Source: Actinomycetota bacterium (GTDB lineage: Bacteria > Actinomycetota > Actinomycetes > S36-B12). From it: a stretch of DNA of 43,922 nt. The translations under genes and the position numbers were made by a program. The notes below the pieces were generated by a model, which saw only the letters and a list, made by a program, of their open reading frames with translations, did not search any database and was not told where the DNA came from. Positions 583 through 29,522 of the stretch are shown here, piece by piece. How positions within the stretch are numbered: position 1 is the stretch's first letter; every line of letters begins with the position of its first letter. The DNA is taken from the NCBI GenBank assembly GCA_009700485.1, contig WLLZ01000003.1:1-43922 (forward strand), given 5' to 3'.

Positions 583-1242
583 ATGGGACGCGAGATCGAC
601 CTGCTGGCCAACTATCCTCAACCGAAGCGCGATGTCGAGTCTCGCGGCGGCGAGAAGACCGAGGCGGATCGCGCCATCGCCCGGCAATTCGGTGAGGCGT
701 TCTTCGACGGCGACCGACGTCATGGGTATGGAGGATTCAGCTACTCTCCCAGGTTCTGGCAACCTGTCATTCCGACGTTCCAGGAGCACTTCGGGCTGAC
801 AGCCGACTCCTCACTACTGGATGTGGGGTGCGCCAAGGGCTTCATGATGCACGACCTTGCTGAGTTGATCCCCGGGATCACAGTGAAGGGCACCGACATC
901 TCGCAGTATGCAATCGAGCACACGATCGACGATATGCAAGAGCATGTCCAGGTGGCCGACGCCAAGAGTCTTCCATTCGATAGCGATTCCTTCGATGTGG
1001 TCATCTCCATCAACACGATCCATAATCTCGACCGCGAGGGATGCGCCCAGGCTCTCCGGGAGATCGAGCGGGTGTCCAGGGGCCAGTCCTTCGTCACCGT
1101 CGATGCCTATCGCAATGACGCCGATCGCGATCGCATGGTCGCTTGGAACCTTACCGCCAAGACGATGATGTCCACGGATGAGTGGATTCACTTCTTCGGC
1201 GAGGCTGGCTATACCGGTGACTACTACTGGTTTATTCCATGA
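583..1242 (+). CDS. class I SAM-dependent methyltransferase
   Basis: 'SLLDVGCAKGFMMHDL' motif I, 'LPFDSDSFDVVISINTIHNL' motif; overlaps next gene by ATGA. Confidence 0.85.
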   Translation: MGREIDLLANYPQPKRDVESRGGEKTEADRAIARQFGEAFFDGDRRHGYGGFSYSPRFWQPVIPTFQEHFGLTADSSLLDVGCAKGFMMHDLAELIPGITVKGTDISQYAIEHTIDDMQEHVQVADAKSLPFDSDSFDVVISINTIHNLDREGCAQALREIERVSRGQSFVTVDAYRNDADRDRMVAWNLTAKTMMSTDEWIHFFGEAGYTGDYYWFIP

Positions 1243-3276: not shown

Positions 3277-3291
3277 GAGTTTGGATTTCTC

Positions 3292-4152
3292 GTGAGCATG
3301 TTTGAGTGCGAAGACCTCTTCGACTATCTAGCTGAACAAAACGATCGACATGCGCGTACGACCTCGTGGTGGCGCATCAATGACTTGGTGGCACGCGAGT
3401 CAATAGCCGCCCTGCGCCCTCAGTTTGACGCACTCGCACCCTTTCCTTTCGGTCCTGTAGGCAGCACCACGTTCCCGTACTTCCAAATGGGTGCTATCGA
3501 TTCCCTAGACCTCTTCGGGCTGGACGAACTTATCCTCTTCTCCTTCTACTGGAGAAACCGTGACCGCTACAGGAACGTGGCAGACATCGGCGCGAACATC
3601 GGCCTTCACAGTGTCATCCTGGGCAAGATGGGCATGGACGTAACAAGTTACGAGCCTGATCCCGTACACCTTGCGGAGTTGCGCAGGAATCTTGCGGCCA
3701 ACTCCCTTGACCAGGTTTCCGTCGTACCGCACGCGGTCAACACCGACGGCGGATCGGTGGAGTTCACCCGGGTTGTGGGTAACACCACTGGCTCGCACAT
3801 ATCCGGAGCCAAGGAGAATCCATACGGAGAACTGGAGCGCTTCAACGTGCCTGCCACGTCAATAGGTGATGCTATTGAGGGTAAGAGCCTTGTCAAGATG
3901 GACGTTGAGGGCTACGAGGCCAGATTGTTGCTGGCGCTCCAAGACAGTGACTTCGCGACCATGGACATCGTTGGGGAGATCGGTTCGGAGGTCAACGCGC
4001 GGAGTATCTTCGAAAGATTCGCGGGCACCAAGGTTCACCTCTTTTCCCAGAAGAAGAATTGGCATCCGGCGAAGAGCCTCAACGACATGCCATCGAGCTA
4101 CCGCGAGGGCTCCGTCTTCCTCAGTTGCAAGTCCGAGATGCCATGGGAGTGA
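3292..4152 (+). CDS. FkbM family methyltransferase
   Basis: 'NVADIGANIGLHSVILGKMGMDVTSYEPDPVHLAELRRNL' and 'VKMDVEGYEARLL'; SD aggag before GTG. Confidence 0.88.
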   Translation: MSMFECEDLFDYLAEQNDRHARTTSWWRINDLVARESIAALRPQFDALAPFPFGPVGSTTFPYFQMGAIDSLDLFGLDELILFSFYWRNRDRYRNVADIGANIGLHSVILGKMGMDVTSYEPDPVHLAELRRNLAANSLDQVSVVPHAVNTDGGSVEFTRVVGNTTGSHISGAKENPYGELERFNVPATSIGDAIEGKSLVKMDVEGYEARLLLALQDSDFATMDIVGEIGSEVNARSIFERFAGTKVHLFSQKKNWHPAKSLNDMPSSYREGSVFLSCKSEMPWE

Positions 4153-4200
4153 CACACCCATCGATGGACGATTCCAGGACCTACCTGAGTGCGAGGAACG

Positions 4201-5019
4201 ATGCCTAGCGCCATCGTTGTTGGCGTGAGCAGTGGGATCGGCGAAGCAATCGCCCACGCTTTGTTGGATCTGGAGTGGTCCGTCGTGGGCACAGTGCGGC
4301 GCACTTGCGAGACGGATGCGTCTTATCTTTCAGGCGTGATTGACTATTGTGACCTCAGCGAGGTCGCCTCCGTTGACAGTTCACTACAGAGAATCTCGGA
4401 TCTTTCGGCTTCGTGGGACGCACTAGTCGTGGCACCCGGCACCTTGGAGCCGATCGGTCGACTTAGTGACGTTGATCCAGACGCTTGGGCGCAATCGATC
4501 GACGTCAATTTCGTAAATCAGGTCAGGATCGTTCAAGGGCTCTTGCCTTCGGCGAGAAAGGACGGCGACCTACAGCCGATCGTAATTTTCTTTGCCGGTG
4601 GCGGATCAAACTCGGCAACAGTCGGCTTCTCTGCCTATACCGCTGCAAAGATTGCACTGACGAAGGTGACGGAACTCCTCGACGCCGAGTACCCGAATGT
4701 TCGTTTCTGCATCATCGGCCCTGGTTGGGTCAATACAAAGATCCACGATCAGGCCTTGTCGAATCCCCGCACTCCGATTGATATCAGACTTGAGACCGAG
4801 AGACGGAGAAGCGCCAACGACTTTGTTTCCATGGCTGACGTAGTTGATACAGTGCTGTGGGCGCTGGGTGCTCCCAAGGATGTTGTAGGCGGACGCAATA
4901 TCTCGGTAGCACATGATCCCGTGCACCAAGTGGAATTCGCTGCTGGTCTTGCTGCCGACCGCGACTTACTGAAGCTCCGGCGAAACGGCAATGGCTATCG
5001 ATGGATGGAGCAAGGGTGA
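4201..5019 (+). CDS. SDR family oxidoreductase
   Basis: 'VVGVSSGIGEAIA' (GxxxGIG), 'YTAAK' catalytic motif; start chosen at ATG 4201 after GAGG. Confidence 0.85.
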   Translation: MPSAIVVGVSSGIGEAIAHALLDLEWSVVGTVRRTCETDASYLSGVIDYCDLSEVASVDSSLQRISDLSASWDALVVAPGTLEPIGRLSDVDPDAWAQSIDVNFVNQVRIVQGLLPSARKDGDLQPIVIFFAGGGSNSATVGFSAYTAAKIALTKVTELLDAEYPNVRFCIIGPGWVNTKIHDQALSNPRTPIDIRLETERRRSANDFVSMADVVDTVLWALGAPKDVVGGRNISVAHDPVHQVEFAAGLAADRDLLKLRRNGNGYRWMEQG

Positions 5020-6815
5020 CGGGCTTGAGTGAAAAGCTGGCTGATGCAGTAGCCCGTTTCTGTGCCGAACGGCAGTTCGGCACAGCATTTGTGGTGGCGG
5101 GTGGCGCCTCCATGCATCTGATACACGGCTTTGCCGACACGCCTGGCTGCGAGTACATACCGATGCATCACGAGCAGGCAGCGGCAATGGCTGCCGACGG
5201 TTACGCTCGATCCAGTGGCGGAACCGGACTTGCAATTGCCACGAGTGGCCCAGGGGCGACCAATCTCATCACCGGGATTGCGGGTGCTTTCTACGACTCG
5301 GTTCCGGTCTTGTTCATCACTGGCCAGGTAAGCACGACACGAATGGTGGGAGACACGGGTGTCCGTCAGATCGGCTTCCAAGAGACGCCGATCGTTCCCA
5401 TGGTCAGCGCCATCACAAAGTCAGCTGTCCAAGTAATTTCACCCTCTCGGATTCGATACGAAATGGAGCGCGCATACTGGACGATGCATCATGGTCGGCC
5501 TGGTCCCGTTCTCGTTGACATCCCGGACGACGTGCAGCGCGAGCGGATATCTTGGGATGAGTTAGAAGGCTTTGCCCCTCCGGTCGAAGAGCCACTAAGG
5601 CCGTCTCCAAGCGAACTGTCTGCTCTCGCGCAGTTGCTTCAGGTCAGCCAGCGACCCGTTCTCGTCGGGGGCTGGGGAGTCCACCTGTCGAAAGCAGAGA
5701 GTGCGTTCCGAGCACTGGTGGCCAAGTGGAAGGTTCCGACGGTCCTCACTTGGGGAGCGGCTGACCTACTAGACGGGGAACATCCACTCCGCGTTGGCAC
5801 TTTCGGCACCCATGGAACTCGTCACGCCAATCTGGCCATTCAGAACGCTGACCTCGTTGTCTCCGTGGGGTCGCGACTGGACACCAAGGCAACAGGGAGC
5901 CCCGTGAACTCTTTCGCACGGGGTGCACGGAAGGTGGTCGTAGACGTTGACCCAGCAGAACTTGCGAAGTTCTCAGCCTTTAATCTAGAGGTTGACCTGA
6001 TGATTCGTGCTGACGCGGGACTCTTCCTTGAAGCAGCGAGTACTTTGCCTCGTTCGGCCCGCGACTTCTCGCCCTGGATGGAAATCATTCGAAACTGGCA
6101 GGTCGCCTTCCAAGCCTATGATGATGCAGCAAGGCAGGGAGAAGGTGTTGACCCCTACCGCTTCATGCGAGACCTTGGGGATTCGGCTCCAGAGATGCTT
6201 GATCTCTTCCTTGACACTGGTTGCACTCTGCCATGGCTCCTGCAGGAATTCCGACCTAAGCCCAGCCAACGCATTTTTCACGACTTCAATAACACTGCCA
6301 TGGGTTGGGCTTTGCCCGCCCTAGTGGGTGGGATGACCGCGAGCCCGGAAAGGCCAGCCGCCTGCATTGCCGGTGATGGAAGTCTCATGATGTCGGTCCA
6401 CGAGTTGGCCACTTTGGCCGGGCGCCGGGGGGCAGCCAAAATCATACTTATGGACAACTCGGGCTACTCCATGATCCGGCAGACTCAGGACCAGTGGTTG
6501 GGCTCGGATTATTCCGCGTCCTCGCCAGAAGGCGGGCTTACATTTCCGAATTTCGGACAGCTCGCCGAAGCATTTGGTTTCGAGTACGACAAAGTTACGC
6601 GAGATGCGGAAGCTTCCTCGAAACTCAACGAATTCTGGAGGAGCCAACGAAACCACCTCTTGCATGTTTCCATCTCAACCGATGCGCGGGTGATCCCACA
6701 GGTGAAGTACGGACGGCCGAATGAGGACATGGAGCCGTTGCTTCCCCGAAGCTCCTTTCTCGATGCCATGATCGTAGAGCCACTCGACGTGTCTCGATAC
6801 GAGGAGACCACGTGA
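5016..6815 (+). CDS. thiamine pyrophosphate-binding protein, acetolactate synthase large-subunit-like
   Basis: 'PMHHEQAAAMAADGYAR' (catalytic Glu), 'SGPGATNLITGIAGAFYDSVPVLFITGQV', TPP motif 'GDGSLMMSVHELATLAGRRGAAKIILMDNSGY'; GTGA overlap supports GTG 5016 start. Confidence 0.92.
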   Translation: MTGLSEKLADAVARFCAERQFGTAFVVAGGASMHLIHGFADTPGCEYIPMHHEQAAAMAADGYARSSGGTGLAIATSGPGATNLITGIAGAFYDSVPVLFITGQVSTTRMVGDTGVRQIGFQETPIVPMVSAITKSAVQVISPSRIRYEMERAYWTMHHGRPGPVLVDIPDDVQRERISWDELEGFAPPVEEPLRPSPSELSALAQLLQVSQRPVLVGGWGVHLSKAESAFRALVAKWKVPTVLTWGAADLLDGEHPLRVGTFGTHGTRHANLAIQNADLVVSVGSRLDTKATGSPVNSFARGARKVVVDVDPAELAKFSAFNLEVDLMIRADAGLFLEAASTLPRSARDFSPWMEIIRNWQVAFQAYDDAARQGEGVDPYRFMRDLGDSAPEMLDLFLDTGCTLPWLLQEFRPKPSQRIFHDFNNTAMGWALPALVGGMTASPERPAACIAGDGSLMMSVHELATLAGRRGAAKIILMDNSGYSMIRQTQDQWLGSDYSASSPEGGLTFPNFGQLAEAFGFEYDKVTRDAEASSKLNEFWRSQRNHLLHVSISTDARVIPQVKYGRPNEDMEPLLPRSSFLDAMIVEPLDVSRYEETT

Positions 6816-7939
6816 CATTGCAACGTTCTTTTCGCGCCGCGGTCCTTGAGGAGTGCGGTCGTCCCCTCGCGATCCGGGAGTTGCAGATCCCCGAGCTCGG
6901 GGCCAGTCAGGTGCTCATCAATGTTCGATACAGCGGCGTCTGCCGTAGCCAGCTGATGGAGGCTCGGGGTATGCGAGGAGACGACCCCTGGCTACCGCAC
7001 CTTCTCGGCCATGAGGGTGTCGGAACTGTGGTGGAAACGGGACCGGGCGTGACCAAAGTGTCACCTGGTCAGGTCGTTATCATTGGATGGATCCAATCGA
7101 GTGGGCTGACGTCCGCTAATCCTATATTCATGAGTGGCGACGTCCGGATCAATGCGGGTGCCGCAACTACATTCAGCGAGATGACCGTGGTGTCTGAGAA
7201 CCGGGTTTATGCCAAGCCTGAGGGAGTCTCGGATAAAGCCGCCGTTCTCTTCGGATGCGCCCTTCTGACCGGTGCTGGCATGGTTCTCAATGAACTACCC
7301 CCTCGGGAGACGGACAACATCATCGTTATGGGATTGGGCGGTGTTGGGATGGCCGCTGTCATTGGAGCCCTGACGGCTCAACCGGCGATGGTGATCGCTG
7401 TCGACATTTCACCTGAGAAGAGGGCGTTGGCCCTAGAGTTGGGAGCCGACATAGCGCTGGACTCCTGGGATCCGGAGTTCGTTGACCACATTCGCGACCT
7501 CACCGACGGCGGAGCGGACGCTTGCTTCGAGTGCGCCGGAACCACTGCGACGATTGAGCTAGCCCTCGACTGTGTCAGGCCAGCCGGGGGCACGGTGCTC
7601 TTCGCTTCGCACCCTCCCGCGGGTGATCGGATCCGTGTTGATCCCTTCCACTTGATCAGCGGGAAGAAGTTGCTGGGGTCATGGGGGGGCGGGGCGAAGC
7701 CTGATTCAGACATCCCTCGGATGGCCGCTGCTATTCGCGGCCGGGGCATTGATCTTGAGGTACTCGTCAGCGATGAGTACGCGTTGGAGGAGGTCAACCA
7801 GGCTCTCGACGATATGGAAGCGGGTCGCACGATTCGCCCGCTACTTGGCTTGGATGAGTTATGCGCGAGTGACACACCCGACTTCTCAGCCGGTAACGGT
7901 GTCTTGATGGCCATGGGCGATGGAAGAATCGATCAGTGA
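6812..7939 (+). CDS. zinc-dependent alcohol dehydrogenase (MDR superfamily)
   Basis: 'GHEGVGTVVETGPGV', Rossmann 'VMGLGGVGMAAVIGA'; GTGA overlap with upstream TPP enzyme. Confidence 0.9.
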   Translation: MTLQRSFRAAVLEECGRPLAIRELQIPELGASQVLINVRYSGVCRSQLMEARGMRGDDPWLPHLLGHEGVGTVVETGPGVTKVSPGQVVIIGWIQSSGLTSANPIFMSGDVRINAGAATTFSEMTVVSENRVYAKPEGVSDKAAVLFGCALLTGAGMVLNELPPRETDNIIVMGLGGVGMAAVIGALTAQPAMVIAVDISPEKRALALELGADIALDSWDPEFVDHIRDLTDGGADACFECAGTTATIELALDCVRPAGGTVLFASHPPAGDRIRVDPFHLISGKKLLGSWGGGAKPDSDIPRMAAAIRGRGIDLEVLVSDEYALEEVNQALDDMEAGRTIRPLLGLDELCASDTPDFSAGNGVLMAMGDGRIDQ

Positions 7940-9177: not shown

Positions 9178-10167
9178 TCATTCATGAGTGGCAACTGCCC
9201 TCAGGCAATCGCGGCTCGTCCCGTACACGAAGTTCAACTGAGCCACTCGATCGGCGGATTGCGTGCCCAGTATCTCGTTCTTGGCTGACCGCACTGCCCT
9301 AAGGAACGGAACTAATGACTCGGGTAGGCCGTTGCGCACTTTAGTTCTCCACGCTACCCCTGGCCGATGAAACTCTTTCGGGCTTTGTTCGCCAGGCGGA
9401 TCAGGCAGTATCGGGTGTGAGCATGACTTCAAGAACTCCACGCGCCAACCTGCGCGAGTCAATGTCATTTCAAGACTTTCTGGCGAGAAGAAGCATAGGT
9501 GAGGTGTCTGAAATGCCAACGTTGCACTTCGTGATCGGAAATCGTCGTGTGGAACTTCAATTACTAATGCACCATCATCAGAGACGACTCGATGCAGATC
9601 GTCCAATAACGCGGGCACATCTCTAGCCGCATAATGTTCAAGGGAATGACTGAGGATGGCAATCTTCGCCTGCTGCCCACCTGACTCGAGGAGTTCACTG
9701 ATGGAGCCGTAACTCTTTGCACCGAACAGTCGCTGATACATGAGGTCCGCCCCGGAATTCAACTCGATTGCTGACAGGGCAGGATCTTGAAGAGTTTGCT
9801 GAGCCGTCTGAAACGCACCCCCCCAACCCGGCCCCAAATCAAGCAACGCATCCCCCGCTTGGAAGTCACAGAACATGGTGGCTAAGGACAACTGCGACAG
9901 CGAACGAAAATCGATTCCGGCATTCCCCGGAACCTTCTTTCGTCGGTCAAAATCCATGTAATATACTGATGATTTTTCGCGATAGTGACTTCGGTAGAAC
10001 TCATTTAATGACCCTGAGTCAGGTGCGGGGCTTGCTTGGCCGAAACCGCACATTTGACATACTTCGATGCTCAGGTTCGAGAATAGATCCAAGTCCGGCC
10101 AACCGCCATCAAGATATGGAAAAAAGGTAGAACCGATTTCACTGCATACCGGGCAAGCCATTGCCAC
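9178..10167 (-). CDS. class I SAM-dependent methyltransferase with N-terminal zinc-binding region (C-methyltransferase-like)
   Basis: 'CPVCSEIG...CQMCGFG' paired Cys, 'FYRSHYREKS', 'DALLDLGPGWGGAFQTA' motif I, 'SHSLEHY'. Confidence 0.85.
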   Translation of the reverse strand: MAMACPVCSEIGSTFFPYLDGGWPDLDLFSNLSIEVCQMCGFGQASPAPDSGSLNEFYRSHYREKSSVYYMDFDRRKKVPGNAGIDFRSLSQLSLATMFCDFQAGDALLDLGPGWGGAFQTAQQTLQDPALSAIELNSGADLMYQRLFGAKSYGSISELLESGGQQAKIAILSHSLEHYAARDVPALLDDLHRVVSDDGALVIEVPHDDFRSRSATLAFQTPHLCFFSPESLEMTLTRAGWRVEFLKSCSHPILPDPPGEQSPKEFHRPGVAWRTKVRNGLPESLVPFLRAVRSAKNEILGTQSADRVAQLNFVYGTSRDCLRAVATHE

Positions 10168-10239
10168 TGGTTTCCTTCCTCTGGCTATGATCAGGTGGGT
10201 TGTGCAGGTAGTTAAAGTTTAGTCCTTCGGGAGGATGAA

Positions 10240-11145
10240 TTGACCGAAAGCATTCCACTAGGCCAAAATGCGCCTCACCGCCACGTGACTTGGCAAGTGC
10301 CCGACCACATCACCGTGATCGCCGAGGTCGGCATCAACCACAACGGCGACATAGCTCTGGCCAAGCAACTCATCGACATCGCTGTGGAGACCGGCTGCGA
10401 CGCCGTCAAGTTCCAAAAGCGCACCATTCACCTCGTGTACGCAGCCGAGGTCCTTGACGCTCCACGTGAGAGCCCCTGGGGCACTACCCAGCGCGCGCAG
10501 AAAGAGGGGCTCGAATTCAGTCGCGAGCAGTACCAGGAAATCGATGCCTACTGCCGTGACCGAGGTATTGCTTGGTCGGCATCGGCGTGGGATATCCCCA
10601 GCCTTGACTTCATCGAGGAGTTCGACCCGCCCTTCCATAAAGTCGCATCAGCCATGCTCACCCATCAGGCCTTCATAAGGGCAGTGGCCAGCAAAGGCCG
10701 CGTGACCTTGATTTCGACCGGCATGGCGACCTTTGACATTATTGACGAGGTCGTGGACGTGTTCAAGGCCGCTTGCACGCCGTTCGTGCTGCTTCACACC
10801 GTCTCGACGTACCCGTCACCCGAGGCCGACCTGAACCTGTCGATGATCCACACCTTGCAGGAGCGGTATGGCGTGCCTGTTGGCTATAGCGGTCACGAGC
10901 CGTCGGTATCCCCCTCGGTCGTCGCGGCAGCACTTGGTGCCACGGTGATCGAGCGCCACATCACTATCGACCGATCGATGTATGGAAGCGACCAAGCTGC
11001 TTCTTTGGAGGAGAACGGGCTGCGCCAACTCGTCAACACCATCCACAAGATCCCCTCGATGCTGGGCACCGGCGAGAAGGATTGGGCCCCCGGTGAGCGC
11101 GAAGTCGCCGGGAAGCTGCGCTATTGGGAGTCGGCGGGTGGATAG
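10240..11145 (+). CDS. N-acetylneuraminate synthase (NeuB) family protein lacking the C-terminal SAF domain
   Basis: 'TVIAEVGINHNGDIALAKQLIDIAVETGCDAVKFQKR', 'VPVGYSGHEPSVSPSVVAAALGATVIERHITIDR'; TTG start with GGGAGGA 5 nt upstream; only ~301 aa. Confidence 0.9.
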   Translation: MTESIPLGQNAPHRHVTWQVPDHITVIAEVGINHNGDIALAKQLIDIAVETGCDAVKFQKRTIHLVYAAEVLDAPRESPWGTTQRAQKEGLEFSREQYQEIDAYCRDRGIAWSASAWDIPSLDFIEEFDPPFHKVASAMLTHQAFIRAVASKGRVTLISTGMATFDIIDEVVDVFKAACTPFVLLHTVSTYPSPEADLNLSMIHTLQERYGVPVGYSGHEPSVSPSVVAAALGATVIERHITIDRSMYGSDQAASLEENGLRQLVNTIHKIPSMLGTGEKDWAPGEREVAGKLRYWESAGG

Positions 11146-11746
11146 CGTCGACGCTCGGCGCCTTGTCCTATCCCAACTGCAGGATGCGCTGAGTGTCCAT
11201 GAAGCACTGTTGGGTTCAAGCGAGATTACCAATCAAATCGTGACGTGGGCGAAGACCTGCGCGGATTCTCTGGCCCAAGGTGGGGTGATCTTCTTCGCGG
11301 GCAACGGCGGGTCCTTCGCCGATGCTCAGCATCTCGCGGCCGAACTAACCGGCAAGATGGGCAGGATGCGCTCACCGCTTGCTGGAATCGCGTTGGGTAC
11401 AAACAGCTCATCGATGTCGGCGATCGGCAATGACTTTGGCTACCAACTCACCTTCGCTCGTGAATTGGAGGGCCTTTGCCGACCCCACTGTGTTGTCATC
11501 GCTTTGACTACGAGTGGCAACAGCGCCAACGTCCTAGAACTTGTCGATCAGGCCAACGTGATGAGTGTTCCCACTCTCGTATTCACGGGGGCCCACGGCG
11601 GCGCTGTCGCCGAGCGGTGCGATGTTATCCGCGTGCCGAGTGATCGCACCGAACGCATCCAGGAGATGCACATCCTCCTTGGTCACACGTTATGCCTGCT
11701 CATCGAGGAGTTCCTCGGACTCTTTCCATCTGAACCTGCGAGCTAG
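11138..11746 (+). CDS. SIS-domain phosphosugar isomerase, GmhA (phosphoheptose isomerase)-like
   Basis: 'FFAGNGGSFADAQHLAAELTGKM' and 'VIALTTSGNSANVLELVDQA'; in-frame GTG at 11138 overlapping NeuB stop. Confidence 0.9.
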   Translation: MDSVDARRLVLSQLQDALSVHEALLGSSEITNQIVTWAKTCADSLAQGGVIFFAGNGGSFADAQHLAAELTGKMGRMRSPLAGIALGTNSSSMSAIGNDFGYQLTFARELEGLCRPHCVVIALTTSGNSANVLELVDQANVMSVPTLVFTGAHGGAVAERCDVIRVPSDRTERIQEMHILLGHTLCLLIEEFLGLFPSEPAS

Positions 11747-11749
11747 TTC

Positions 11750-12580
11750 ATGGCGCGAACCTTCGACTTGGGCTGCTCCTTCGGGATTATTCAGGGCCGC
11801 CTCAGTGCCCAAACCGACCGTGGCTACCAGTCCTTCCCCTGGGAGACTTGGGAAGCCGAGTTCGGATTGGCCGCCGATCGCGGCCTTGAGCACATCGAGT
11901 GGGTGCTGGATTCCTGGCGACTTGACGAAAACCCACTCCTGAGCGATACGAGCGGCGTGATTGGACGCGCTCAGGAGACAGGGGTTCAGGTCCTCTCGGT
12001 CTGTGCTGACTACCTGATGGATCGACCCTTGGATGTAACTGACTCCGGTTCGTGGGCAGTTCTCAGTCAACTCGCTGATGCAATGCGGGAACTCGGAGCG
12101 CAGTGGCTGGTGGTCCCTTGCGTAGACCAATCGTCACTGCGCACCCCGTCATCGCTGGCTCGGTTTGCGAGCGCTGCTGATCAACTTGGCGGGGAGTTGG
12201 CCGGGACAGGTATTCGCGTCTCCCTTGAATCTGATCTCGGGCCCGCCGAGTTCGCTGCACTACTCGCCAACTTGGATCCAGAGATTTTCGGCGTCAACTA
12301 CGACATCGGTAACAGCGCCTATCTCGGGTACGCGCACGATGAGGAGTTCGACGCCTACGGCGACCGCATCTCCCTAGTTCACATAAAGGACCGACTTTTC
12401 GAGGGCGGATCAGTGCCCTTGGGGCACGGCAACGCTGACATCCCGGGGGTGATCGAGCGGCTACGGGCGATGAAGTTCAATGGCCCTGTGACGATGCAGG
12501 CTTTCCGTGATGCCCCGGGCATCGAAATCTTGGACGATCAACTGCGCTGGCTGATGCCCATCCTTGAAGGCAGCGCCTGA
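11750..12580 (+). CDS. sugar phosphate isomerase/epimerase (xylose isomerase-like TIM barrel)
   Basis: 'IQGRLS', 'VNYDIGNSAYLGY', 'LVHIKDRLFEGGSVPLGHGNADIPGVIERL'. Confidence 0.85.
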   Translation: MARTFDLGCSFGIIQGRLSAQTDRGYQSFPWETWEAEFGLAADRGLEHIEWVLDSWRLDENPLLSDTSGVIGRAQETGVQVLSVCADYLMDRPLDVTDSGSWAVLSQLADAMRELGAQWLVVPCVDQSSLRTPSSLARFASAADQLGGELAGTGIRVSLESDLGPAEFAALLANLDPEIFGVNYDIGNSAYLGYAHDEEFDAYGDRISLVHIKDRLFEGGSVPLGHGNADIPGVIERLRAMKFNGPVTMQAFRDAPGIEILDDQLRWLMPILEGSA

Positions 12581-13341
12581 TGGATCTTGGGCTCGCTGGG
12601 AGACATGTGCTGGTTGCCGGGGCTTCCCGGGGTCTGGGCTTCGCCATTGTCAGCAACCTCTTGGCCGAGGGGGCCAAGGTAACCTCGGTGGGCCGAGACC
12701 CAGAGTCACTCGCTGCCGCAAGAACGTTTTGGCTGACGGGTGAACCAAACGCCATCGTTAACACTCTTGCGTTGGACCTTTCGGATCAAGCTTCAGCCGC
12801 AACACTTGCCACCTACCTGACCGACGAAGGTGGTCTGGACGGAGTGATCGTGGTGGCCGGTAGCGGGCGGCCGACAGGTGAGCCGCAAACCACGGCCTTT
12901 GCGACAGCGACTGCACTTAATGTGATGCCCGCCTTGGTGACTCTCGAGGCGGCCGGCCCGTTACTTCGAAAGAGCTCGAGCGGTTCCGTCGTCCTCATCT
13001 CCTCTGTTGCGGCGATGGAATACATCGATTGCCCTCCTGAGTATGCCGCCGCAAAGGCGACACTGCATGCCTACGCGTCGCATTGGTCGCGTGAGTTGCG
13101 GCCGGTGCGCGTCAACGTGGTGGCCCCCGGAAACATTCTTACTGAGGGATCCGTTTGGCAGCGGCGCATGCGCGAGGATCCAACCGCGTTGGACGAGTAT
13201 CTTTCAAGAGAGGTCACCCTCGGGCGGGTGGCCGAGCCGGAGGAGGTAGCGCGCGTGGCTGTGTTTCTGGTATCCCGCGCAGCGAGCTTTATGACAGGAT
13301 CCACAGTGGTCGTGGATGGCGGACAGGTACGCCAATGGTGA
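12580..13341 (+). CDS. SDR family oxidoreductase
   Basis: 'VAGASRGLGFAIVSNLLAEGA', 'YAAAK', 'VNVVAPGNI', C-term 'MTGSTVVVDGG'. Confidence 0.9.
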   Translation: MDLGLAGRHVLVAGASRGLGFAIVSNLLAEGAKVTSVGRDPESLAAARTFWLTGEPNAIVNTLALDLSDQASAATLATYLTDEGGLDGVIVVAGSGRPTGEPQTTAFATATALNVMPALVTLEAAGPLLRKSSSGSVVLISSVAAMEYIDCPPEYAAAKATLHAYASHWSRELRPVRVNVVAPGNILTEGSVWQRRMREDPTALDEYLSREVTLGRVAEPEEVARVAVFLVSRAASFMTGSTVVVDGGQVRQW

Positions 13342-14156
13342 GCCAATCGCTCTTCGACCTAACCGGCCGCGTAGTCGTCATAACAGGCGCCGGCGGGCTG
13401 CTCGGTCAAGAGCACGCCTTGGCAGTCGGTCGCGCTGGTGGCATACCCGTACTTCTTGAGCTCTCGCCCGAGGCCCTGGCCGCGGCGGCCCGCCGACTGG
13501 ATGCGGAGGCGATCTCGCACCTCGCCATTGAAGTTGACCTCACAAGTGAGGCCCAAATCGCTACCGCGGCGGGCGAGATCAAAAAACAGTTCGGCGCTGT
13601 GTGGGGGCTGGTCAATAACGTGGCCTCCAACCCCCCGATGGGCTCGGCGGCGCAGGGCGCTGACCGGCTTGAGGCTTTTCCGCTCACCCAATGGGATCAC
13701 GACATCCGGTTGGGGCTGACGAGTGCGTTTCTGTGTTCCCGCCACTTCGGCGAGCAGATGGCTGAAGCAGGTGGCGGTTCGATCATCAATGTGGCTTCCG
13801 ACCTCGCTCTGATCTCACCAGACCAGCGCATGTATTCCGTAGGCCTCCCGGAGGGCGCATCCGCACCGGTGAAGCCAGTTTCCTACTCGGTGGTTAAGTC
13901 GGCGCTCCTCGGATTGACGCGGTACCTCGCCACCTACTGGAGCCCGATCCCGGTGCGCTGCAACGCGCTCGTCCCCGGTTCTGTTGGCGGCACTCAGAGC
14001 CCGGACCTGACACGGGAATTGACATCCCGCATTCCACTCGCACGTCTTGCTGAACCAGGTGAGTATCAGGGGGCGCTGGTGTTCCTGCTCTCCGATGCAT
14101 CGGCATACATGACCGGCGCCAATCTGGTGATGGACGGCGGGCGCACGGCATGGTGA
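13335..14156 (+). CDS. SDR family oxidoreductase
   Basis: Start trimmed from 13155 to ATG 13335 overlapping upstream stop; 'VVITGAGGLLGQEHALAV', 'YSVVKSALLGLTRYLA', 'YMTGANLVMDGG'. Confidence 0.9.
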   Translation: MVSQSLFDLTGRVVVITGAGGLLGQEHALAVGRAGGIPVLLELSPEALAAAARRLDAEAISHLAIEVDLTSEAQIATAAGEIKKQFGAVWGLVNNVASNPPMGSAAQGADRLEAFPLTQWDHDIRLGLTSAFLCSRHFGEQMAEAGGGSIINVASDLALISPDQRMYSVGLPEGASAPVKPVSYSVVKSALLGLTRYLATYWSPIPVRCNALVPGSVGGTQSPDLTRELTSRIPLARLAEPGEYQGALVFLLSDASAYMTGANLVMDGGRTAW

Positions 14157-14965
14157 CGCCCGGCTTGGATGCTAATGAGAACATGATTCGCGATGAGGTC
14201 TGGGCTCTAGTTCCAGCAAGGTCAGGATCAAAGGGAATTACCGACAAGAACCTGCAGGAGGTTGAGGGTGTCAGTCTTCTTGGTCTTTCGGTTCTAGCCG
14301 GCACCGCAAGTGCCGCGATTGATCGGTGTTTTGTCAGCACGGATTCCCAAGCGTATGCCGACGAGGCCCGCCGTTACGGAGCGGAAGTGCCCTATCTCCG
14401 GCCGGATAGTGCATCCAGTGACACGGCGACTGATCTTGATGTCTTCCTTCACTTCCTCAACTGGGCCGCTGCCAATATCGAACACCTGCCGTGGGCCGTG
14501 GTGCACCTTCGCCCGACAACCCCATGCCGCGAGCCGGAGCGCGTGAATGAGGCCGTTCAACTCGCAAGAGAGGTCTCCGCATCTGCGACCGCAATTAGGT
14601 CTGTGCATGCCGCCGCAGAATCCCCCTTCAAGTGGTTTCTTCGAGATACCGACGGTTACCTAACGACGTTTGACCGAGGGCGAGAGCTCGACGCATCCAA
14701 CCGCTCTCGAGCGGAATTCGAAGATGTTTACATTCCGAACGGGTATGCGGACGTGGTTTTCACGTCTCATATCATCCGTACTGACCTACTTCATGGGAAT
14801 GCTGTTCGACCTTTTCTTACTGAGCCAGTTATCGAAGTTGATGGCCCCTTCGAACTCGAACTTCTTCGTCGGGCAGACTCTATTCCCCCGGCTCTGCTGT
14901 CGGCAGCTTCACTTGTTCGCGGTAACCGCAATTCCGCTCCGGAAAGGGAGACTACCCCTTCATGA
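14150..14965 (+). CDS. acylneuraminate cytidylyltransferase (NeuA/KdsB)-family protein
   Basis: 'LVPARSGSKGITDKNLQEVEGVSLLGLSV', 'FVSTDSQAYADEARRYGAEVPYLRP'. Confidence 0.88.
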   Translation: MVTPGLDANENMIRDEVWALVPARSGSKGITDKNLQEVEGVSLLGLSVLAGTASAAIDRCFVSTDSQAYADEARRYGAEVPYLRPDSASSDTATDLDVFLHFLNWAAANIEHLPWAVVHLRPTTPCREPERVNEAVQLAREVSASATAIRSVHAAAESPFKWFLRDTDGYLTTFDRGRELDASNRSRAEFEDVYIPNGYADVVFTSHIIRTDLLHGNAVRPFLTEPVIEVDGPFELELLRRADSIPPALLSAASLVRGNRNSAPERETTPS

Positions 14966-16302
14966 TCAAGACTGAATTCCGAACGATTGTGACAGAAGTC
15001 CCCCATCCAAAGGCTCTCGAAATGGCTGACCGTCTTGCTGCTGTGGAATCTCATTCCATGCACGGGCAACTGCCGGTCGTCTGGGATAGGGCCGTAGGGT
15101 CCTCCGTCTACGATCCTTGGGGCAATCGCTGGATCGACTTCACCAGCACGATATTCGTTGCCAACGCAGGTCATGCGCATCCGCTCATCGTCGATGCGAT
15201 TGTAAAGACCGCTCAGAAACCACTTCTTCATGCCTACAACTACCCGACCGCGGAGCGCCTGAACTATCTCGAAGAACTCATCAGGGTGACTCCCTCTTAC
15301 CTCGAGAAGGCATTCCTAGTCTCAGCGGGCACAGAGGCGATTGAAGTTGCCATCAAATTGATGCGCATGAACGCAATGGCTGCAGGCAAGCGACGTTCCG
15401 TTGTCGTCAGTTTCGAAGGCAACTGGCATGGGAGAACCACCGGCGCTCAACACCTAAGTTCTAACGTCGACCAGCGATCCTGGATTGGCCATGAGGATCC
15501 GGGCGTACTTCGTCTACCCTTCCCCTATCCGTGGATCGCGGAGGCCACGAGCGACCCTCGAGGGTTCTTCCGCGAGACGCTGCAACGTGAGTTGGACGCT
15601 CGCGGCTGGACTTTGAAGGACGACATAGCGGGTTTCATGCTTGAGACCTATCAAGGATGGGGGGCGGTCTTCTACCCGGCTGACTTCGTGAAGGAAGTGG
15701 AGCGGGCCGCAAAAGAGAGTGGTGGCCTACTTGTCTTTGACGAGATGCAGGCGGGTTTTGCGCGCACAGGTGAACTGTTCGGATACCAGCACTATGGGGT
15801 GCAACCGGATCTGGTGTGCTGCGGTAAGGGTGCAAGTTCGAGTGTGCCGCTCGCATTCGTACTGGGTTCAGGCTACCTACTCGACTTACCTTCCGTCGGC
15901 TCGATGTCATCGACGCATTCAGCGAACCCAATCAGTTGCGCAGCAGGACTTGCCAATCTCAAGGCGATTGAGAACGAGGGACTTATCGAGCGAGCGCGTG
16001 ACCTCGGACTTCAGTTCCATGCGGAGCTCAATAGCATTGCAAATGCGTCACCCGCAGTATCGAGCATTCAAGGACTTGGCATGGTCGCTGCCATCATTAC
16101 CAATGGGGTGGGCGACGCTGATGCATCCGCCATTGCCACTGAGATCTCATGGGAGTGCATGAGACAAGGGCTCTTGGTTGTCCATACTGGACGCGAGTCG
16201 GTAAAGATCGCACCGCCACTGACGATTGCCCTAGACGCAATGATCGAGGGCTTGTCCGTCCTAAGGAAGGTGATCGACGATGTCACAGCAAAGCACAGTT
16301 AG
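14962..16302 (+). CDS. class III PLP-dependent aminotransferase
   Basis: 'FLVSAGTEAIEVAIKLMR', 'GLLVFDEMQAGFARTGELFGYQHYGVQPDLVCCGKGASSSVPLAFVLG'; ATGA overlap. Confidence 0.92.
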   Translation: MIKTEFRTIVTEVPHPKALEMADRLAAVESHSMHGQLPVVWDRAVGSSVYDPWGNRWIDFTSTIFVANAGHAHPLIVDAIVKTAQKPLLHAYNYPTAERLNYLEELIRVTPSYLEKAFLVSAGTEAIEVAIKLMRMNAMAAGKRRSVVVSFEGNWHGRTTGAQHLSSNVDQRSWIGHEDPGVLRLPFPYPWIAEATSDPRGFFRETLQRELDARGWTLKDDIAGFMLETYQGWGAVFYPADFVKEVERAAKESGGLLVFDEMQAGFARTGELFGYQHYGVQPDLVCCGKGASSSVPLAFVLGSGYLLDLPSVGSMSSTHSANPISCAAGLANLKAIENEGLIERARDLGLQFHAELNSIANASPAVSSIQGLGMVAAIITNGVGDADASAIATEISWECMRQGLLVVHTGRESVKIAPPLTIALDAMIEGLSVLRKVIDDVTAKHS

Positions 16303-16729
16303 CCCACTGAACGCCCTGAGGCATCATGCAGTGACAGGACCGTCGGCCAACATCCTTCAAGAATTCTATGAGTACTTCGGTTTCACCCAATTGATTATTG
16401 AGGAGTCACCCGACCCCGAGTACATCCAGGCTCTTACGGGCGGGGCCTGGTCTGCAGCACGCATCTTGAAGCTCAAGAATTCTGTTGGAGACGTGCTTGA
16501 GATCATCGAACCATCGATTTTGGCAGGCGAGTTAACCTCGGGAGGTGCAGGAAACTGGTCGCATCTCGCTTTTACTGTGCTCAGTTGTGACGAGGCCGTG
16601 AGCGACGTTCTGGGCATGGGAGGTCACTTGGTCGGAGGCCCAGTCACCAATCCTGAGGCCCCCTTTCGTGTGGCCTACGTTCGGGATCCTGCTCTCAACC
16701 TCATTGAACTCGTTGAGGCAATGCCATGA
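16280..16729 (+). CDS. VOC (glyoxalase/dioxygenase fold) family protein
   Basis: 'RHHAVTGPSANILQEFYEYFGF', 'WSHLAFTVLSCDEAV', 'AYVRDPALNLIELVE'. Confidence 0.85.
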   Translation: MSQQSTVSPLNALRHHAVTGPSANILQEFYEYFGFTQLIIEESPDPEYIQALTGGAWSAARILKLKNSVGDVLEIIEPSILAGELTSGGAGNWSHLAFTVLSCDEAVSDVLGMGGHLVGGPVTNPEAPFRVAYVRDPALNLIELVEAMP

Positions 16730-16771: not shown

Positions 16772-17443
16772 ATGAGTCGTGACTACCTTGATGTCGAGTA
16801 CTCGGCAACTGCTCGGCCCATGACGGACTATCCAAGTCTTCTGGCGGCTCATTTGGCGTCGAAGTGGGATATCCGCTCGGGCCAGAGTCTGCTTGATGTT
16901 GCGTCCGGACGTGCGGAGATGTCAACAGGCTTCACCTCACTGGGGCTAAGGGTCACTGCACTGGATGCGTCCCCCGAGGCGGAGCACTTCGCCATCCAGG
17001 GGGGGGCGGACTTCATCTCAGGGGTAATCCGCCCGAACGAACCGATGCCAGTGGCCGATGCATCCTTTGACGTGGTCTTCTGCAAGTCCTTCGTTGAGCA
17101 CCTGCGCGAACCAATCAACTTCGCCGAGGATTGCTATCGAGTCTTGAAGCCTGGGGGCAAGGTCATCTTCCTGACTCCGGATTGGGAATCGAACCACCGA
17201 ATCTTCTTCGACGATGTCACCCACGTGACTCCATTCTCAACCGTCACGATGCAGCAACTGCTCGTGTTGAGCGGTTTTGAGAATGTGATCAGTTATCGGT
17301 TCAGGCAATTGCCCGTCACATGGCGATACCCGGCGATGAACGCCGTGTGTGCAGCAATCGCGCCCTTAGTGCCCAGCCGGACGACTCGGAAGTTCTTACG
17401 TTGGAGTCGCGAGTTGATGGTGTGCGGGGTGGGCATCAAGTAG
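16772..17443 (+). CDS. class I SAM-dependent methyltransferase
   Basis: 'SLLDVASGRAEMSTGF', 'FDVVFCKSFVEHLREPINFAEDCYRVLKPGGKVIFLTPDWE'; contains a G8 tract at 16999-17006. Confidence 0.88.
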   Translation: MSRDYLDVEYSATARPMTDYPSLLAAHLASKWDIRSGQSLLDVASGRAEMSTGFTSLGLRVTALDASPEAEHFAIQGGADFISGVIRPNEPMPVADASFDVVFCKSFVEHLREPINFAEDCYRVLKPGGKVIFLTPDWESNHRIFFDDVTHVTPFSTVTMQQLLVLSGFENVISYRFRQLPVTWRYPAMNAVCAAIAPLVPSRTTRKFLRWSRELMVCGVGIK

Positions 17444-18341: not shown

Positions 18342-18418
18342 CGGATTAGTGAAATGTGAGCGTTGCTGTTGATTCACGAATCGCCCAATTGCGATGGATC
18401 CTACCGTGCACAGGACGA

Positions 18419-18424
18419 TAAGAT
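18419..18424 (+). promoter_or_regulatory. candidate -10 TAAGAT of a leaderless transcript starting at ATG 18432
   Basis: TAAGAT-N7-ATG, no Shine-Dalgarno. Confidence 0.35.
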
Positions 18425-18431
18425 TCGGCTG

Positions 18432-20246
18432 ATGAGCGAGGTCACGGATTCCAACACCACCAAAGGTGACCGCACATATCTTGTTACAAGTGCGCTTGAG
18501 CGTACTTGGCCATCGGACAGACATATCGTCTTCCTGGGCCAATGGTGCCTTCGATATTCGCGGCGCGAAGTCTGGTCAGGGCTAGACTACTCGGTCGCCC
18601 CTTACCACTGGGATGATCGAGCGCAAATACCGAAAGATCTTGAATACATCAATGACATCTATGAGGCCCTGCTCCCGGAATTGGCTCGGGTGTTAAACGA
18701 GATTCATGGAGTGAGCTACTCGGTGCGGTATTGGCGCATCGTCGTGGGTTCTTGGCTCTATTACTTCTCCCAGGTGGTCATGGATAGATGGAGAGTTCTA
18801 CAGTGCGCAAGTGAGTCTTATTCGAGGCCCACGCTTCTTAGGGTTACTCCGGATGACACACCTCTAGCCTCGCCTAACTCAGCGGCCTTTCTGCGTGCGA
18901 CTGAAAGCGACGAGTGGAATGAACGCTTGTGCGCGGACATTGCTGATCAGTGGACAAATATAGAAGTAACTAAGACCCAACAATGTCAAGTTATCAACCG
19001 CCCATTCAGGCTAAAAAGCGAGCAGGCAGGAAACGTCAGATCATCCATCCTGCGGATTCTGTACTCCATGGTTGTTAAGCCTCTGGATTGGTTAGCCCAA
19101 CGACGTATCTTCTATGGTGAGGGAGTTTCACTACATTCGGATTATCTAAGCCGGCCAAATAGGTTCGCACTTTCCGTTCTTATGCGCCAGGTTCCCTCGA
19201 TGAGTTTGCCTATCCAACTTCCACAGACTGACGCCCGAACTGCCTCGCGAGCATGGGGGCTGACGACGGCCGACGGCGATGCGTTCAAAAACGCGCTTGC
19301 GGTACTGATCCCGCAATACTTACCAACGTGCTTTCTCGAAGGATTTGAACAGGCGCAGGCTCTCGCAGCTCATTCAGGGTGGATACGCAACCCCCGTGTT
19401 GTCATGACCGCCAATGCTTTCGACAGCGATGATAGATGGAAGCTGTGGGCGGCAGAACAGGTCGACAAGGGAGCGAAGTTGGTCATTGCTCAGCATGGTG
19501 GAGGGTATGGCTCACAACAGTGGTCGGCAATGCAGAACTACGAAATGAGCATCAGCGATCGCTATCTCACATGGGGATGGAGCGACCCCCAAGAGGCTAA
19601 GGCATATCCAGCACCAGCTACGAAACTAGTAGGAATGCGCGTTAGGCGCCCAAGACGAACCGGAAAGTGCGTTCAAGTTACTGCTTCTCTGCCGAGGCAG
19701 AGCTATTGGATGTTCGGCGCCCCCATCGGGCCGCAGGTTCACGACTACATCGACGACCAGTTTCGTTTCGCTGCCGCGCTGAACGTCAATGTGCGGGAGG
19801 ACCTCTTGGTGCGTCTTTACCATCGTGACTACGGTTGGGACCTACAGCAACGATGGCAGGACCGTGAACCAACTATTGCTACTGACCCTGGTCGCCAACG
19901 ACTGGATCGCATTCTGCGCGAGGCTCGGCTCTATGTCGCAACCTACAACGCGACAACTTTTCTTGAGTCCTTCACCCAAGGAATTCCTACTGTGATCTTC
20001 TGGGACCCGGAGTTTTGGGAACTTTCGATTGAAGCCAAACCATACTTTGACGTCTTACGGCAGGCCGGTATTCTTTTCGACGATCCCGTTAGTTGTGCAG
20101 CGATGGTGAATTCAATATGGGATGACGTGCCTGCTTGGTGGGAGTCCCCTGACGTCCAGTCCGCCGTTATATCCTTTTCTGAGCGATTCGCGCACGTGGG
20201 AGCGCGCCCATTAGGTCGGCTAAAGAGTGCACTTATCGATTGGTGA
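18432..20246 (+). CDS. LIC12162-like surface-glycan transferase family protein
   Basis: 'TYLVTSALERTWPSDRHIVFLGQWCLRYSRREVW' N-terminus and 'LYVATYNATTFLESFTQGIPTVIFWDPEFWEL' recall that family; start placed at ATG 18432 with TAAGAT 7 nt upstream. Confidence 0.75.
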   Translation: MSEVTDSNTTKGDRTYLVTSALERTWPSDRHIVFLGQWCLRYSRREVWSGLDYSVAPYHWDDRAQIPKDLEYINDIYEALLPELARVLNEIHGVSYSVRYWRIVVGSWLYYFSQVVMDRWRVLQCASESYSRPTLLRVTPDDTPLASPNSAAFLRATESDEWNERLCADIADQWTNIEVTKTQQCQVINRPFRLKSEQAGNVRSSILRILYSMVVKPLDWLAQRRIFYGEGVSLHSDYLSRPNRFALSVLMRQVPSMSLPIQLPQTDARTASRAWGLTTADGDAFKNALAVLIPQYLPTCFLEGFEQAQALAAHSGWIRNPRVVMTANAFDSDDRWKLWAAEQVDKGAKLVIAQHGGGYGSQQWSAMQNYEMSISDRYLTWGWSDPQEAKAYPAPATKLVGMRVRRPRRTGKCVQVTASLPRQSYWMFGAPIGPQVHDYIDDQFRFAAALNVNVREDLLVRLYHRDYGWDLQQRWQDREPTIATDPGRQRLDRILREARLYVATYNATTFLESFTQGIPTVIFWDPEFWELSIEAKPYFDVLRQAGILFDDPVSCAAMVNSIWDDVPAWWESPDVQSAVISFSERFAHVGARPLGRLKSALIDW

Positions 20247-23021: not shown

Positions 23022-24176
23022 ATGGAATATCGCAGTTCGCCGATACGTGTCTCTGGGTCAGATGTTGGACAATCTGAGTTATCGGCGATCGCCAGCGTCT
23101 TTGAACGTGGCTATTTGGGCATGGGGGCCGACGTCCAGGAATTTGAGGGGCTGCTAGCAGGCTATTTCGGTCGCCCCGTCGCCTGCGTGGCGACCGGCAC
23201 GGCGGCCCTACAACTGGCGGTTCAGTGCTGCGGTATTGGGCCGGGGGATGAGGTGCTAGTACCCTCCTTGACGTACGTGGCGGCCTTCCAGGCTATTTCG
23301 GCCACGGGGGCCACCCCTGTTCCCGTTGACGTCCTCCAGGATTCGCTGACGATCGACCCCGACGATGCTTGTCGGCGACTCTCTGCCCGCACCAAGGCTG
23401 TGATGCCGGTGTATTACGGGGGTGGAATTCGCGAACTGGATCGGGTCTATTCGTTGGCTGAAGAACACGGTCTGCGGGTGATCGAGGATGCGGCTCATGC
23501 TTTTGGCACGGTCTTCGGCGGCAAGCGGGTCGGGTCTACGGGTGATGTTGCCTGCTTCAGTTTCGACCCCATCAAGAACCTGACTTCCGGCGAGGGCGGC
23601 TGCGTCGTTTCAGACGATGCGGAGTTCATGGAGCGGGTGCGGGATGCCCGGTTGCTAGGGGTCAAGGGGGACTCGAAAGCTCGGAATAGTGAGCGCCGCC
23701 TGTATGAGTTCGAGGTGGATTCGCAGGGCTGGCGCTACCACATGAGCAATATCAATGCTGCGATTGGTAAGGCTCAGTTCGAGGTGTTCCCTATGCGCGC
23801 TGCAATGCGTCAGCAACTCGCCCAGAAGTACAACGAGATCTTAGGATCGTCCTCGAGTATCCAGATCCTTCCTTACTCGTATGACGATGTAGTACCACAC
23901 ATCTATGTGGTTCGTTTCGCGTCTTCAGCGGTGCGCGACCAAGTGAAAGCTCGACTGCTCAGCGAGTTGAACGTCGAAACTGCTCTCCATTGGTATCCCA
24001 ATCACTACTTGGCTCGGTACCGTTTGCCCGCCGAGGCTCTACCCGTTACCGAGGATGCGTTTAGTCGGATGCTCACACTACCTCTGCATACCAAACTCTC
24101 GGTAGAGCAAGTCACCCAGATCGCGCAATTCGTGAGTGTGGCTGCTGAGTCTCAGGAAGTCCCATTGGATGACTGA
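23022..24176 (+). CDS. DegT/DnrJ/EryC1/StrS family sugar aminotransferase
   Basis: 'ATGTAALQLAVQCCGIGPGDEVLVPSLTYVAAFQAI', 'VIEDAAHAFGT', 'CFSFDPIKNLTSGEGGCVV' (PLP Lys). Confidence 0.93.
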   Translation: MEYRSSPIRVSGSDVGQSELSAIASVFERGYLGMGADVQEFEGLLAGYFGRPVACVATGTAALQLAVQCCGIGPGDEVLVPSLTYVAAFQAISATGATPVPVDVLQDSLTIDPDDACRRLSARTKAVMPVYYGGGIRELDRVYSLAEEHGLRVIEDAAHAFGTVFGGKRVGSTGDVACFSFDPIKNLTSGEGGCVVSDDAEFMERVRDARLLGVKGDSKARNSERRLYEFEVDSQGWRYHMSNINAAIGKAQFEVFPMRAAMRQQLAQKYNEILGSSSSIQILPYSYDDVVPHIYVVRFASSAVRDQVKARLLSELNVETALHWYPNHYLARYRLPAEALPVTEDAFSRMLTLPLHTKLSVEQVTQIAQFVSVAAESQEVPLDD

Positions 24177-25101: not shown

Positions 25102-25202
25102 CGTCACTTCCCCGGAGCGCAGATAGGCCCACTGTTTTGACGCGCCTACAATCGTGCGAATCCCACCCGGGTGTCCCACTCAAGCTGAGAGGTGACCGGA
25201 CC

Positions 25203-26591: not shown

Positions 26592-26675
26592 CGTTAAATG
26601 TTCTATGGTTCGAGGTCACCCACATGCATCGGTCATAGTCCTCACCATTATCCGGCGAAGCGCCCCAATATTTCT

Positions 26676-27830: not shown

Positions 27831-27860
27831 GCTTATACGTCCCATTCCCCGCGTGTCCGG

Positions 27861-29515: not shown

Positions 29516-29522
29516 GCCGGGC

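Follow-up and report, generated by a model that had tools for sequence, protein, structure and literature searches.

We analysed a stretch of 43,922 nucleotides, hereafter the window (contig WLLZ01000003.1 of assembly GCA_009700485.1), from a record named Actinomycetota bacterium and placed by GTDB in S36-B12; the source genome is 77% complete. Eight open reading frames (ORFs), all on the plus strand, form one block at positions 10240–16729 with overlapping junctions (Table 1). They encode a NeuB-family synthase, a GmhA-like isomerase of the SIS family, a TIM-barrel protein, two short-chain dehydrogenases/reductases (SDR1 and SDR2), a NeuA-like cytidylyltransferase, a class III aminotransferase and a VOC-superfamily protein. 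A preliminary description of the window, made from its letters and ORFs, had listed these families and proposed that they make and activate a non-canonical 3-deoxy-ulosonic acid, possibly from a heptose phosphate.

The operon and its conservation

All eight ORFs of the named families were confirmed. The neuB and SIS genes overlap by 8–9 nt, TIM and SDR1 by 1 nt, SDR1 and SDR2 by 7 nt, SDR2 and NeuA by 7 nt, NeuA and the aminotransferase by 4 nt, and the aminotransferase and VOC by 23 nt; the SIS and TIM genes are separated by a 3-nt gap. Pfam matches with E-values from 1e-16 to 1e-81 were obtained for NeuB, SIS_2, AP_endonuc_2, adh_short (twice), CTP_transf_3 and Aminotran_3. The absence of a SAF domain from NeuB also held, as Pfam NeuB is the sole domain detected and just 21 residues follow it. 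No NeuC, LegB/PseB or acetyltransferase gene was found within the eight-gene block, in agreement with the claim that it lacks precursor genes for sialic, legionaminic or pseudaminic acid; a separate PseB cassette sits elsewhere in the window. The original inventory of eight genes stands, but it overlooked the phosphatase encoded in relatives, the downstream LIC12162 transferase, the methyltransferases and the branch of relatives with a thiamine diphosphate (ThDP) enzyme.

Table 1. Genes of the operon and its flanks (positions in the window)
Predicted product	Position	Strand	Features
SAF-less NeuB-family PEP-dependent 3-deoxy-ulosonate synthase, KFQKRTI / ASAM type	10240..11145	+	301 aa; TTG start after GGAGG; Pfam NeuB 1.5e-70
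GmhA-like SIS sugar-phosphate isomerase	11138..11746	+	Best start GTG 11138; Pfam SIS_2; zinc ligands H/E/Q/H intact
Xylose-isomerase-like TIM-barrel protein	11750..12580	+	Pfam AP_endonuc_2 4e-22; weak IolE / UlaE-type NCBIfam matches
SDR1 oxidoreductase	12580..13341	+	Pfam adh_short; GASRGLG and YxxxK present
SDR2 oxidoreductase, gluconate-5-dehydrogenase-like	13335..14156	+	Pfam adh_short; YSVVK
NeuA/PseF-like CTP-dependent cytidylyltransferase	14150..14965	+	Pfam CTP_transf_3 1e-16; NCBIfam PseF 82 bits; PDB 6ifd 5e-23
Class III pyridoxal phosphate-dependent aminotransferase	14962..16302	+	Pfam Aminotran_3 4e-81; closest solved protein GABA aminotransferase, 3r4t 2.6e-57
VOC-superfamily protein, glyoxalase I / methylmalonyl-CoA-epimerase-like	16280..16729	+	H15, E74, H95, E143 invariant
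S-adenosylmethionine-dependent methyltransferase, probable operon member	16772..17443	+	Pfam Methyltransf_11; accompanies aminotransferase in relatives
LIC12162-family transferase, candidate glycosyltransferase acting on the CMP-sugar, predicted to fold like GT-B enzymes	18363..20246	+	TIGR04331 471.1 bits
Divergent methyltransferase at 5' side of operon, possible member	9178..10167	-	Kept in G432, 68% aa identity

Among 147 genomes of the order, only one besides the window's own (G432, from the same family) carries a close NeuB, with 83% identity; none of the six genomes listed for the same genus gave a match. The contig of this second genome (locus L136) contains all eight genes and the divergent methyltransferase in identical order. 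The eight proteins are 71–88% identical and the DNA is 76% identical across positions 9414–16701, and in all eight genes third codon positions differ by 0.43–0.56 as compared with 0.08–0.18 for first and second positions. This alignment, with divergence concentrated at third positions, means that the block is more than a chance arrangement and is under strong selection; the operon is real and conserved. Its patchy occurrence suggests horizontal acquisition. The gene-neighbourhood search proposed in the preliminary description found the eight families in order in a second genome and a near-identical cassette in another phylum: a Thermodesulfobacteriota locus (L042) holds HAD-SIS, NeuB, TIM, NeuA, aminotransferase, VOC, methyltransferase, SDRs and LIC12162 all together.

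Synthase, isomerase and accompanying enzymes

Relatives of the window NeuB were taken as the best 80 matches of one pattern-limited scan of one genome collection, so the frequencies given below are not those of nature. They span 19 named phyla, archaea included, with members among gut Lachnospiraceae, SAR11-type marine bacteria, Prochlorococcus and Thermoplasmatota. All 80 are 275–314 aa long, lack SAF and share, with few variants, the signature KFQKRT...GYSGHE...ERHITLDR.MYGSDQ. In the numbering of Neisseria NeuB, residues K53, Q55, K129, S132, Y186, S213, H215, E234, H236 and D247 are retained in 80/80 and E25 in 79/80; the window protein keeps the residues for phosphoenolpyruvate (PEP) and metal (E25, K53, Q55, K129, S132, S213, H215, E234, H236, D247). 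E134 is M in 63 relatives and in the window NeuB, and S in 11 relatives. The F288 and R314 sites are lost in the window NeuB and all 80 relatives. These two residues line the N-acetyl sugar site of NeuB, and the R314A mutant is inactive (PMC6795526). As far as can be read from its sequence, the window NeuB keeps the PEP and metal residues and has lost those holding the N-acetyl sugar. It reaches neither the N-acetylneuraminate synthase cut-off (TIGR03569, 234.7 bits against 399.65) nor that of PseI (TIGR03586, 180.9 bits against 340.25). The closest solved protein, Leptospira 6NCS, is also short and is devoid of the KFQKRT signature. The short NeuBs resemble animal NANS, which uses N-acetylmannosamine-6-phosphate; this likeness was not used as evidence.

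On the phylogenetic tree, M-type NeuBs form one clade (71 rows, SH-aLRT support 100) apart from the KRTP group. The latter comes from actinomycetes with large genomes, in which NeuA-HAD is present and SIS is missing in 8/8 loci. We take it to be of the Kdn (3-deoxy-D-glycero-D-galacto-non-2-ulosonic acid) teichulosonic-acid type, whose locus in S. coelicolor is SCO4873–SCO4882 (PMC13011467). The named records examined here of the window NeuB branch carry the annotation N-acetylneuraminate synthase; the branch probably makes something other than N-acetylneuraminate.

The window SIS protein best resembles GmhA rather than KdsD, both in NCBIfam and in the PDB, and scores 144.1 bits with the gmhA equivalog model TIGR00441 (cut-off 209.45, not reached). 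The zinc ligands of GmhA, H61, E65, Q175 and H183 (PMC5387315), are intact in it and kept in 40–42 of 42 SIS proteins of relatives. It is the sole GmhA homologue found in the genome, where no protein scored above the HldE model cut-off. Hence it is unlikely to serve ADP-heptose synthesis.

Gene neighbourhoods were counted by domain within 6 kb in the 70 full-flank loci with KRT[IVL]-type NeuBs. Treating the isomerase-like neighbours as one SIS cluster was rejected, given that the sequences show two domains, HAD and SIS, often fused. SIS was found in 40/70 loci, HAD in 43/70, both in 30/70 and neither in 17/70; in many loci SIS directly adjoins NeuB. A HAD-SIS fusion, HAD first, occurs in 22 loci and a NeuA-HAD fusion in 18 ORFs. 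SIS is limited to KRT[IVL] NeuBs (40/70 vs 0/8 for KRTP, p = 0.002), and control loci of SAF-type NeuBs yielded SIS in 0/28, with flanks of only ~1–1.5 kb. The HAD part of the relatives matches the TIGR01670 (KdsC/YrbI) and Kdn-9-phosphate phosphatase models at ~85–103 bits, below both cut-offs, while the SIS part of the fusions scores 172–200 bits with gmhA. A 361-aa neighbour in Azospirillum, considered as a HAD-SIS candidate, was rejected, as it consists of a weak NeuA-like part and HAD. The two kinds of fusion indicate that the NeuB substrate is a sugar phosphate and that the ulosonate phosphate is dephosphorylated before or at the transfer of cytidine monophosphate (CMP).

The NeuA-like protein stays below the PseF cut-off of 205.7 bits and scores at most ~30 bits with models of the cytidylyltransferase KdsB; its PDB match is a CMP-NeuAc synthetase. 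For the TIM protein, phmmer against the PDB gave no match. The VOC protein has no Pfam match; a profile built from seven members matches glyoxalase 1ss4 (1e-17) as well as methylmalonyl-CoA epimerases, the four H/E/H/E ligand positions being invariant, and its AlphaFold2 model (pLDDT 83) agrees with this assignment.

Co-occurrence of these modules was tested on the same 70 loci, which include one pair of duplicate contigs; the two tests repeated without this pair still hold. NeuA and the ThDP enzyme are mutually exclusive (both in 2 loci, NeuA alone in 36, ThDP alone in 19, p = 7e-7), so one and the same acid is probably put to two different uses among the relatives. TIM co-occurs with SDR2 (p = 6e-9), and the aminotransferase with VOC (10/13 vs 0/57 without, p = 7e-10) and with the methyltransferase (p = 5e-6). 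The last three are nearly always found alongside NeuA, which points to a tailoring set on the NeuA side. Some relatives have a GFO/IDH gene in place of SDR1 or a class IV aminotransferase in place of class III. Since TIM is present in NeuA and ThDP loci alike, the TIM-SDR set probably acts before activation. On the simplest reading, SDR1 (or GFO/IDH), TIM and SDR2 would be a dehydrogenase, a keto-sugar epimerase and a reductase; the window TIM protein may be a keto-sugar epimerase/isomerase or a dehydratase.

The LIC12162 protein downstream exceeds the TIGR04331 cut-off of 225 bits (Table 1). Its AlphaFold2 model (pTM 0.76) is matched by Foldseek to GT-B enzymes such as MurG with TM-scores of 0.2–0.3 over the query; this match is to the generic GT-B fold and gives no ground for connecting the protein with Kdo or sialyl transferases. 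Above-cut-off members were found in 1 of 298 sampled genomes of the phylum, that of the window itself, so the link to NeuB comes from few relatives. Judging by adjacency in a handful of loci and by the generic predicted fold, the transferase likely uses the CMP-sugar.

Proposed pathway and alternatives

We consider it fairly likely that the product of the operon is a 3-deoxy-2-ulosonic acid, CMP-activated and not N-acylated, formed along a route like those of Kdo (3-deoxy-D-manno-oct-2-ulosonic acid) and Kdn. The product is very probably an uncharacterised acidic sugar, related to sialic acids and derived from a phosphorylated, non-acetylated sugar. The earlier proposal of a non-canonical acid is thereby well supported, by the loss of the N-acetyl-sugar residues, by the zinc ligands that the isomerase shares with GmhA, and by the fusions of HAD to SIS and to NeuA in relatives. 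The position of SIS next to NeuB with its zinc site intact, together with both fusions, suggests for the relatives the order ketose phosphate, aldose phosphate, 3-deoxy-2-ulosonate phosphate, free acid, CMP-sugar, an order also followed by the Kdo and Kdn pathways. The GmhA-like SIS would turn a ketose phosphate into an aldose phosphate, likeliest sedoheptulose-7-phosphate into heptose-7-phosphate. The SAF-less NeuB would join the aldose phosphate and PEP to give 3-deoxy-2-ulosonate phosphate (from a heptose, a ten-carbon dec-2-ulosonate); R61/T62 of KFQKRT are predicted to bind the phosphate group. A phosphatase of the KdsC/Kdn-9-phosphate type, encoded with or fused to its neighbours in relatives, would strip the phosphate, and the NeuA-like enzyme would form the CMP-sugar, likely consumed by the LIC12162-type transferase. 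SDR1 (or GFO/IDH), TIM and SDR2 may act as an oxidise-epimerise-reduce set altering stereochemistry, and the aminotransferase and VOC, with the methyltransferase, may add and adjust an amino group. The order of the tailoring steps is likewise conjectural.

The operon represents a variation on the established Kdo/Kdn type of pathway rather than a type of its own. With the Kdo pathway KdsD-KdsA-KdsC-KdsB it shares the four-step logic of SIS isomerase, PEP condensation, HAD phosphatase and CMP transfer, but its synthase is Pfam NeuB and not KdsA, its isomerase is GmhA-like and not KdsD, and its cytidylyltransferase is PseF/NeuA-like and below the KdsB cut-offs. With the Kdn pathway (Kdn-9-phosphate synthase, Kdn-9-phosphate phosphatase and CMP-Kdn synthetase, known from Bacteroides, Prymnesium and the Streptomyces teichulosonic acid) it shares a NeuB-family synthase, NeuA-type activation, the lack of genes for an N-acyl sugar precursor and, in its relatives, a KdsC-like HAD phosphatase. 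It differs in having a dedicated GmhA-like isomerase gene overlapping neuB, a NeuB from a clade other than the KRTP group, and added SDR, TIM, aminotransferase and VOC tailoring genes. The synthases of Neu5Ac, legionaminic and pseudaminic acids (NeuB, LegI, PseI) have the same catalytic barrel and PEP/metal residues, whereas the window NeuB lacks SAF, R314 and F288 and has M for E134, and its operon has no NeuC, LegB or PseB partner. The SIS protein has the fold and all zinc ligands of GmhA; unlike GmhA, it falls below the equivalog cut-off, has NeuB for a neighbour and no HldE partner, and in relatives is fused to a ulosonate-type phosphatase.

Several observations weigh against this scheme. 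No phosphatase of the KdsC/Kdn-9-phosphate type was found in the window cassette, nor in the 77% complete genome at E ≤ 1e-3. The link between NeuB and its partners is strong but not strict, as 30 of the 70 loci lack SIS within 6 kb, and 17 lack both SIS and HAD. The SIS score below the gmhA cut-off means that its substrate may not be sedoheptulose-7-phosphate, and none of the sequence evidence fixes the carbon number of the product.

The heptose-phosphate origin (C7+C3) claimed in the preliminary description is plausible and the best single guess, although sequence cannot separate heptose-7-phosphate from an unusual hexose-6-phosphate; a C10 product made from heptose-7-phosphate is therefore put forward tentatively, at rather less than even chances. 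A heptose is favoured because the KRTP group manages without SIS, as expected for mannose-6-phosphate from central metabolism, whereas the window clade adds a GmhA-like isomerase. Given the lack of another GmhA and of HldE above the cut-off, isomerisation of sedoheptulose-7-phosphate would serve the NeuB route alone. That the relatives, too, make a C10 3-deoxy-dec-2-ulosonic acid from sedoheptulose-7-phosphate and PEP, spent by lineage as a CMP-sugar or, in making branched sugars, as the keto-acid donor for a YerE-like ThDP enzyme, is more doubtful. On a plasmid of Methylomagnum ishizawai (L155:4847-9852) a split transketolase adjoins a class III aminotransferase, SDR, short NeuB and HAD-IIIA, an arrangement that fits a supply of unusual ketose phosphates.

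A nine-carbon, Kdn-like product, for which SIS would convert a hexulose phosphate into an unusual hexose-6-phosphate that NeuB then extends, appears unlikely. Kdn-9-phosphate synthases accept mannose-6-phosphate (PMC6200933), the HAD domain of the relatives matches the Kdn-9-phosphate phosphatase model, and the sister KRTP group, with its NeuA-HAD, looks like the teichulosonic-acid locus (cf. PMC13011467). However, mannose-6-phosphate requires no dedicated isomerase, the SIS protein has a full GmhA zinc site, and KRTP and KRT[IVL] NeuBs are separate groups, with SIS confined to the second.

It is improbable that the window acid, or a relative of it, is not solely CMP-activated but donates an acyl group to the YerE-like ThDP enzyme encoded at 5001–6815, giving a branched sugar. 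That YerE/acetohydroxyacid synthase-like gene lies 3.4 kb upstream of the operon, and in 19 relatives that lack NeuA an enzyme of this kind accompanies NeuB, in most cases together with SIS and HAD and often along with RfbF, RfbG or DegT; 2-oxo acids bearing hydroxyl groups are used by ErwE and MMAR_2332 (PMC12247030). Yet in relatives the genes for NeuA and the ThDP enzyme are mutually exclusive and the window operon carries NeuA, while its ThDP gene belongs to a separate group beyond the divergent methyltransferase. In comparison with the YerE/ErwE/MMAR_2332 branched-sugar systems, the NeuB-SIS pair of relatives clusters with a YerE-like enzyme and CDP-dideoxysugar genes, whereas the window cassette has NeuA and no RfbF/RfbG; there, a keto acid made by NeuB would be the donor.

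An eight-carbon Kdo isomer, formed if SIS acts like KdsD on a pentulose-5-phosphate, is still less probable: KdsD likewise belongs to the SIS family and the HAD domain is KdsC-like, but the SIS protein matches GmhA in NCBIfam and the PDB and the synthase is not of the KdsA family. Finally, we give hardly any credence to an ordinary N-acylated nonulosonic acid synthase that has merely lost SAF and draws precursors from the downstream cassette with PseB (489 bits, over cut-off), a SpsF-like cytidylyltransferase and DegT at 23–31 kb, as that cassette owns a SAF-containing NeuB, neither the short NeuB nor any of its relatives has the acyl-contact residues, and both curated NeuB cut-offs are missed.

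Neighbouring cassettes and implications

That second, ordinary nonulosonic-acid cassette occupies positions 23022–33421, ~7–17 kb downstream of the operon, and also encodes an aldo-keto reductase. At the other end of the window, positions 583–7939 hold alpha and beta subunits like pyruvate dehydrogenase E1, a FkbM-like gene, an SDR, the YerE-like ThDP enzyme and a zinc alcohol dehydrogenase; this group looks like a sugar-branching set. A plasmid of Azospirillum thermophilum (L154:1190-20476) carries a full LegB/LegC/NeuC cassette beside a short NeuB and a NeuA-like-HAD fusion and, like the window, has two ulosonic acid routes side by side.

In loci L020, L023, L031, L034, L047, L061, L065 and L079, NeuB and HAD-SIS, fused or separate, lie beside a YerE-like ThDP enzyme, mostly without NeuA, and several of them have an RfbF-type nucleotidyltransferase, RfbG-type dehydratase or DegT; the ulosonate of these loci may be an acyl donor for caryophyllose-like branched sugars. 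An MptE-like protein (PF01973, Maf-type) is encoded near the short NeuB in L036, L038, L046, L048, L050, L052, L054 and L062, several with HAD-SIS and NeuA, which suggests glycosylation of protein (flagellin) with the NeuB product, mainly in Lachnospiraceae. Radical SAM genes of the SPASM and B12-binding types occur near the short NeuB in L037, L041, L042, L013, L043 and L045.

In the open-licence literature nothing on this gene set was found under deculosonic acids, NeuB with GmhA, or HAD-SIS with NeuB, and no product is assigned to the NeuB relatives in the 19 phyla. If the proposed pathway is true, the annotation of many organisms as sialic acid producers is wrong and an acidic sugar of a new type awaits identification; a C10 acid from sedoheptulose-7-phosphate would be a class of sialic-acid-like sugar for which that literature holds no paper that we found. 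The split between NeuA and ThDP loci would, in turn, connect the synthesis of ulosonic acids with that of branched higher sugars like caryophyllose.

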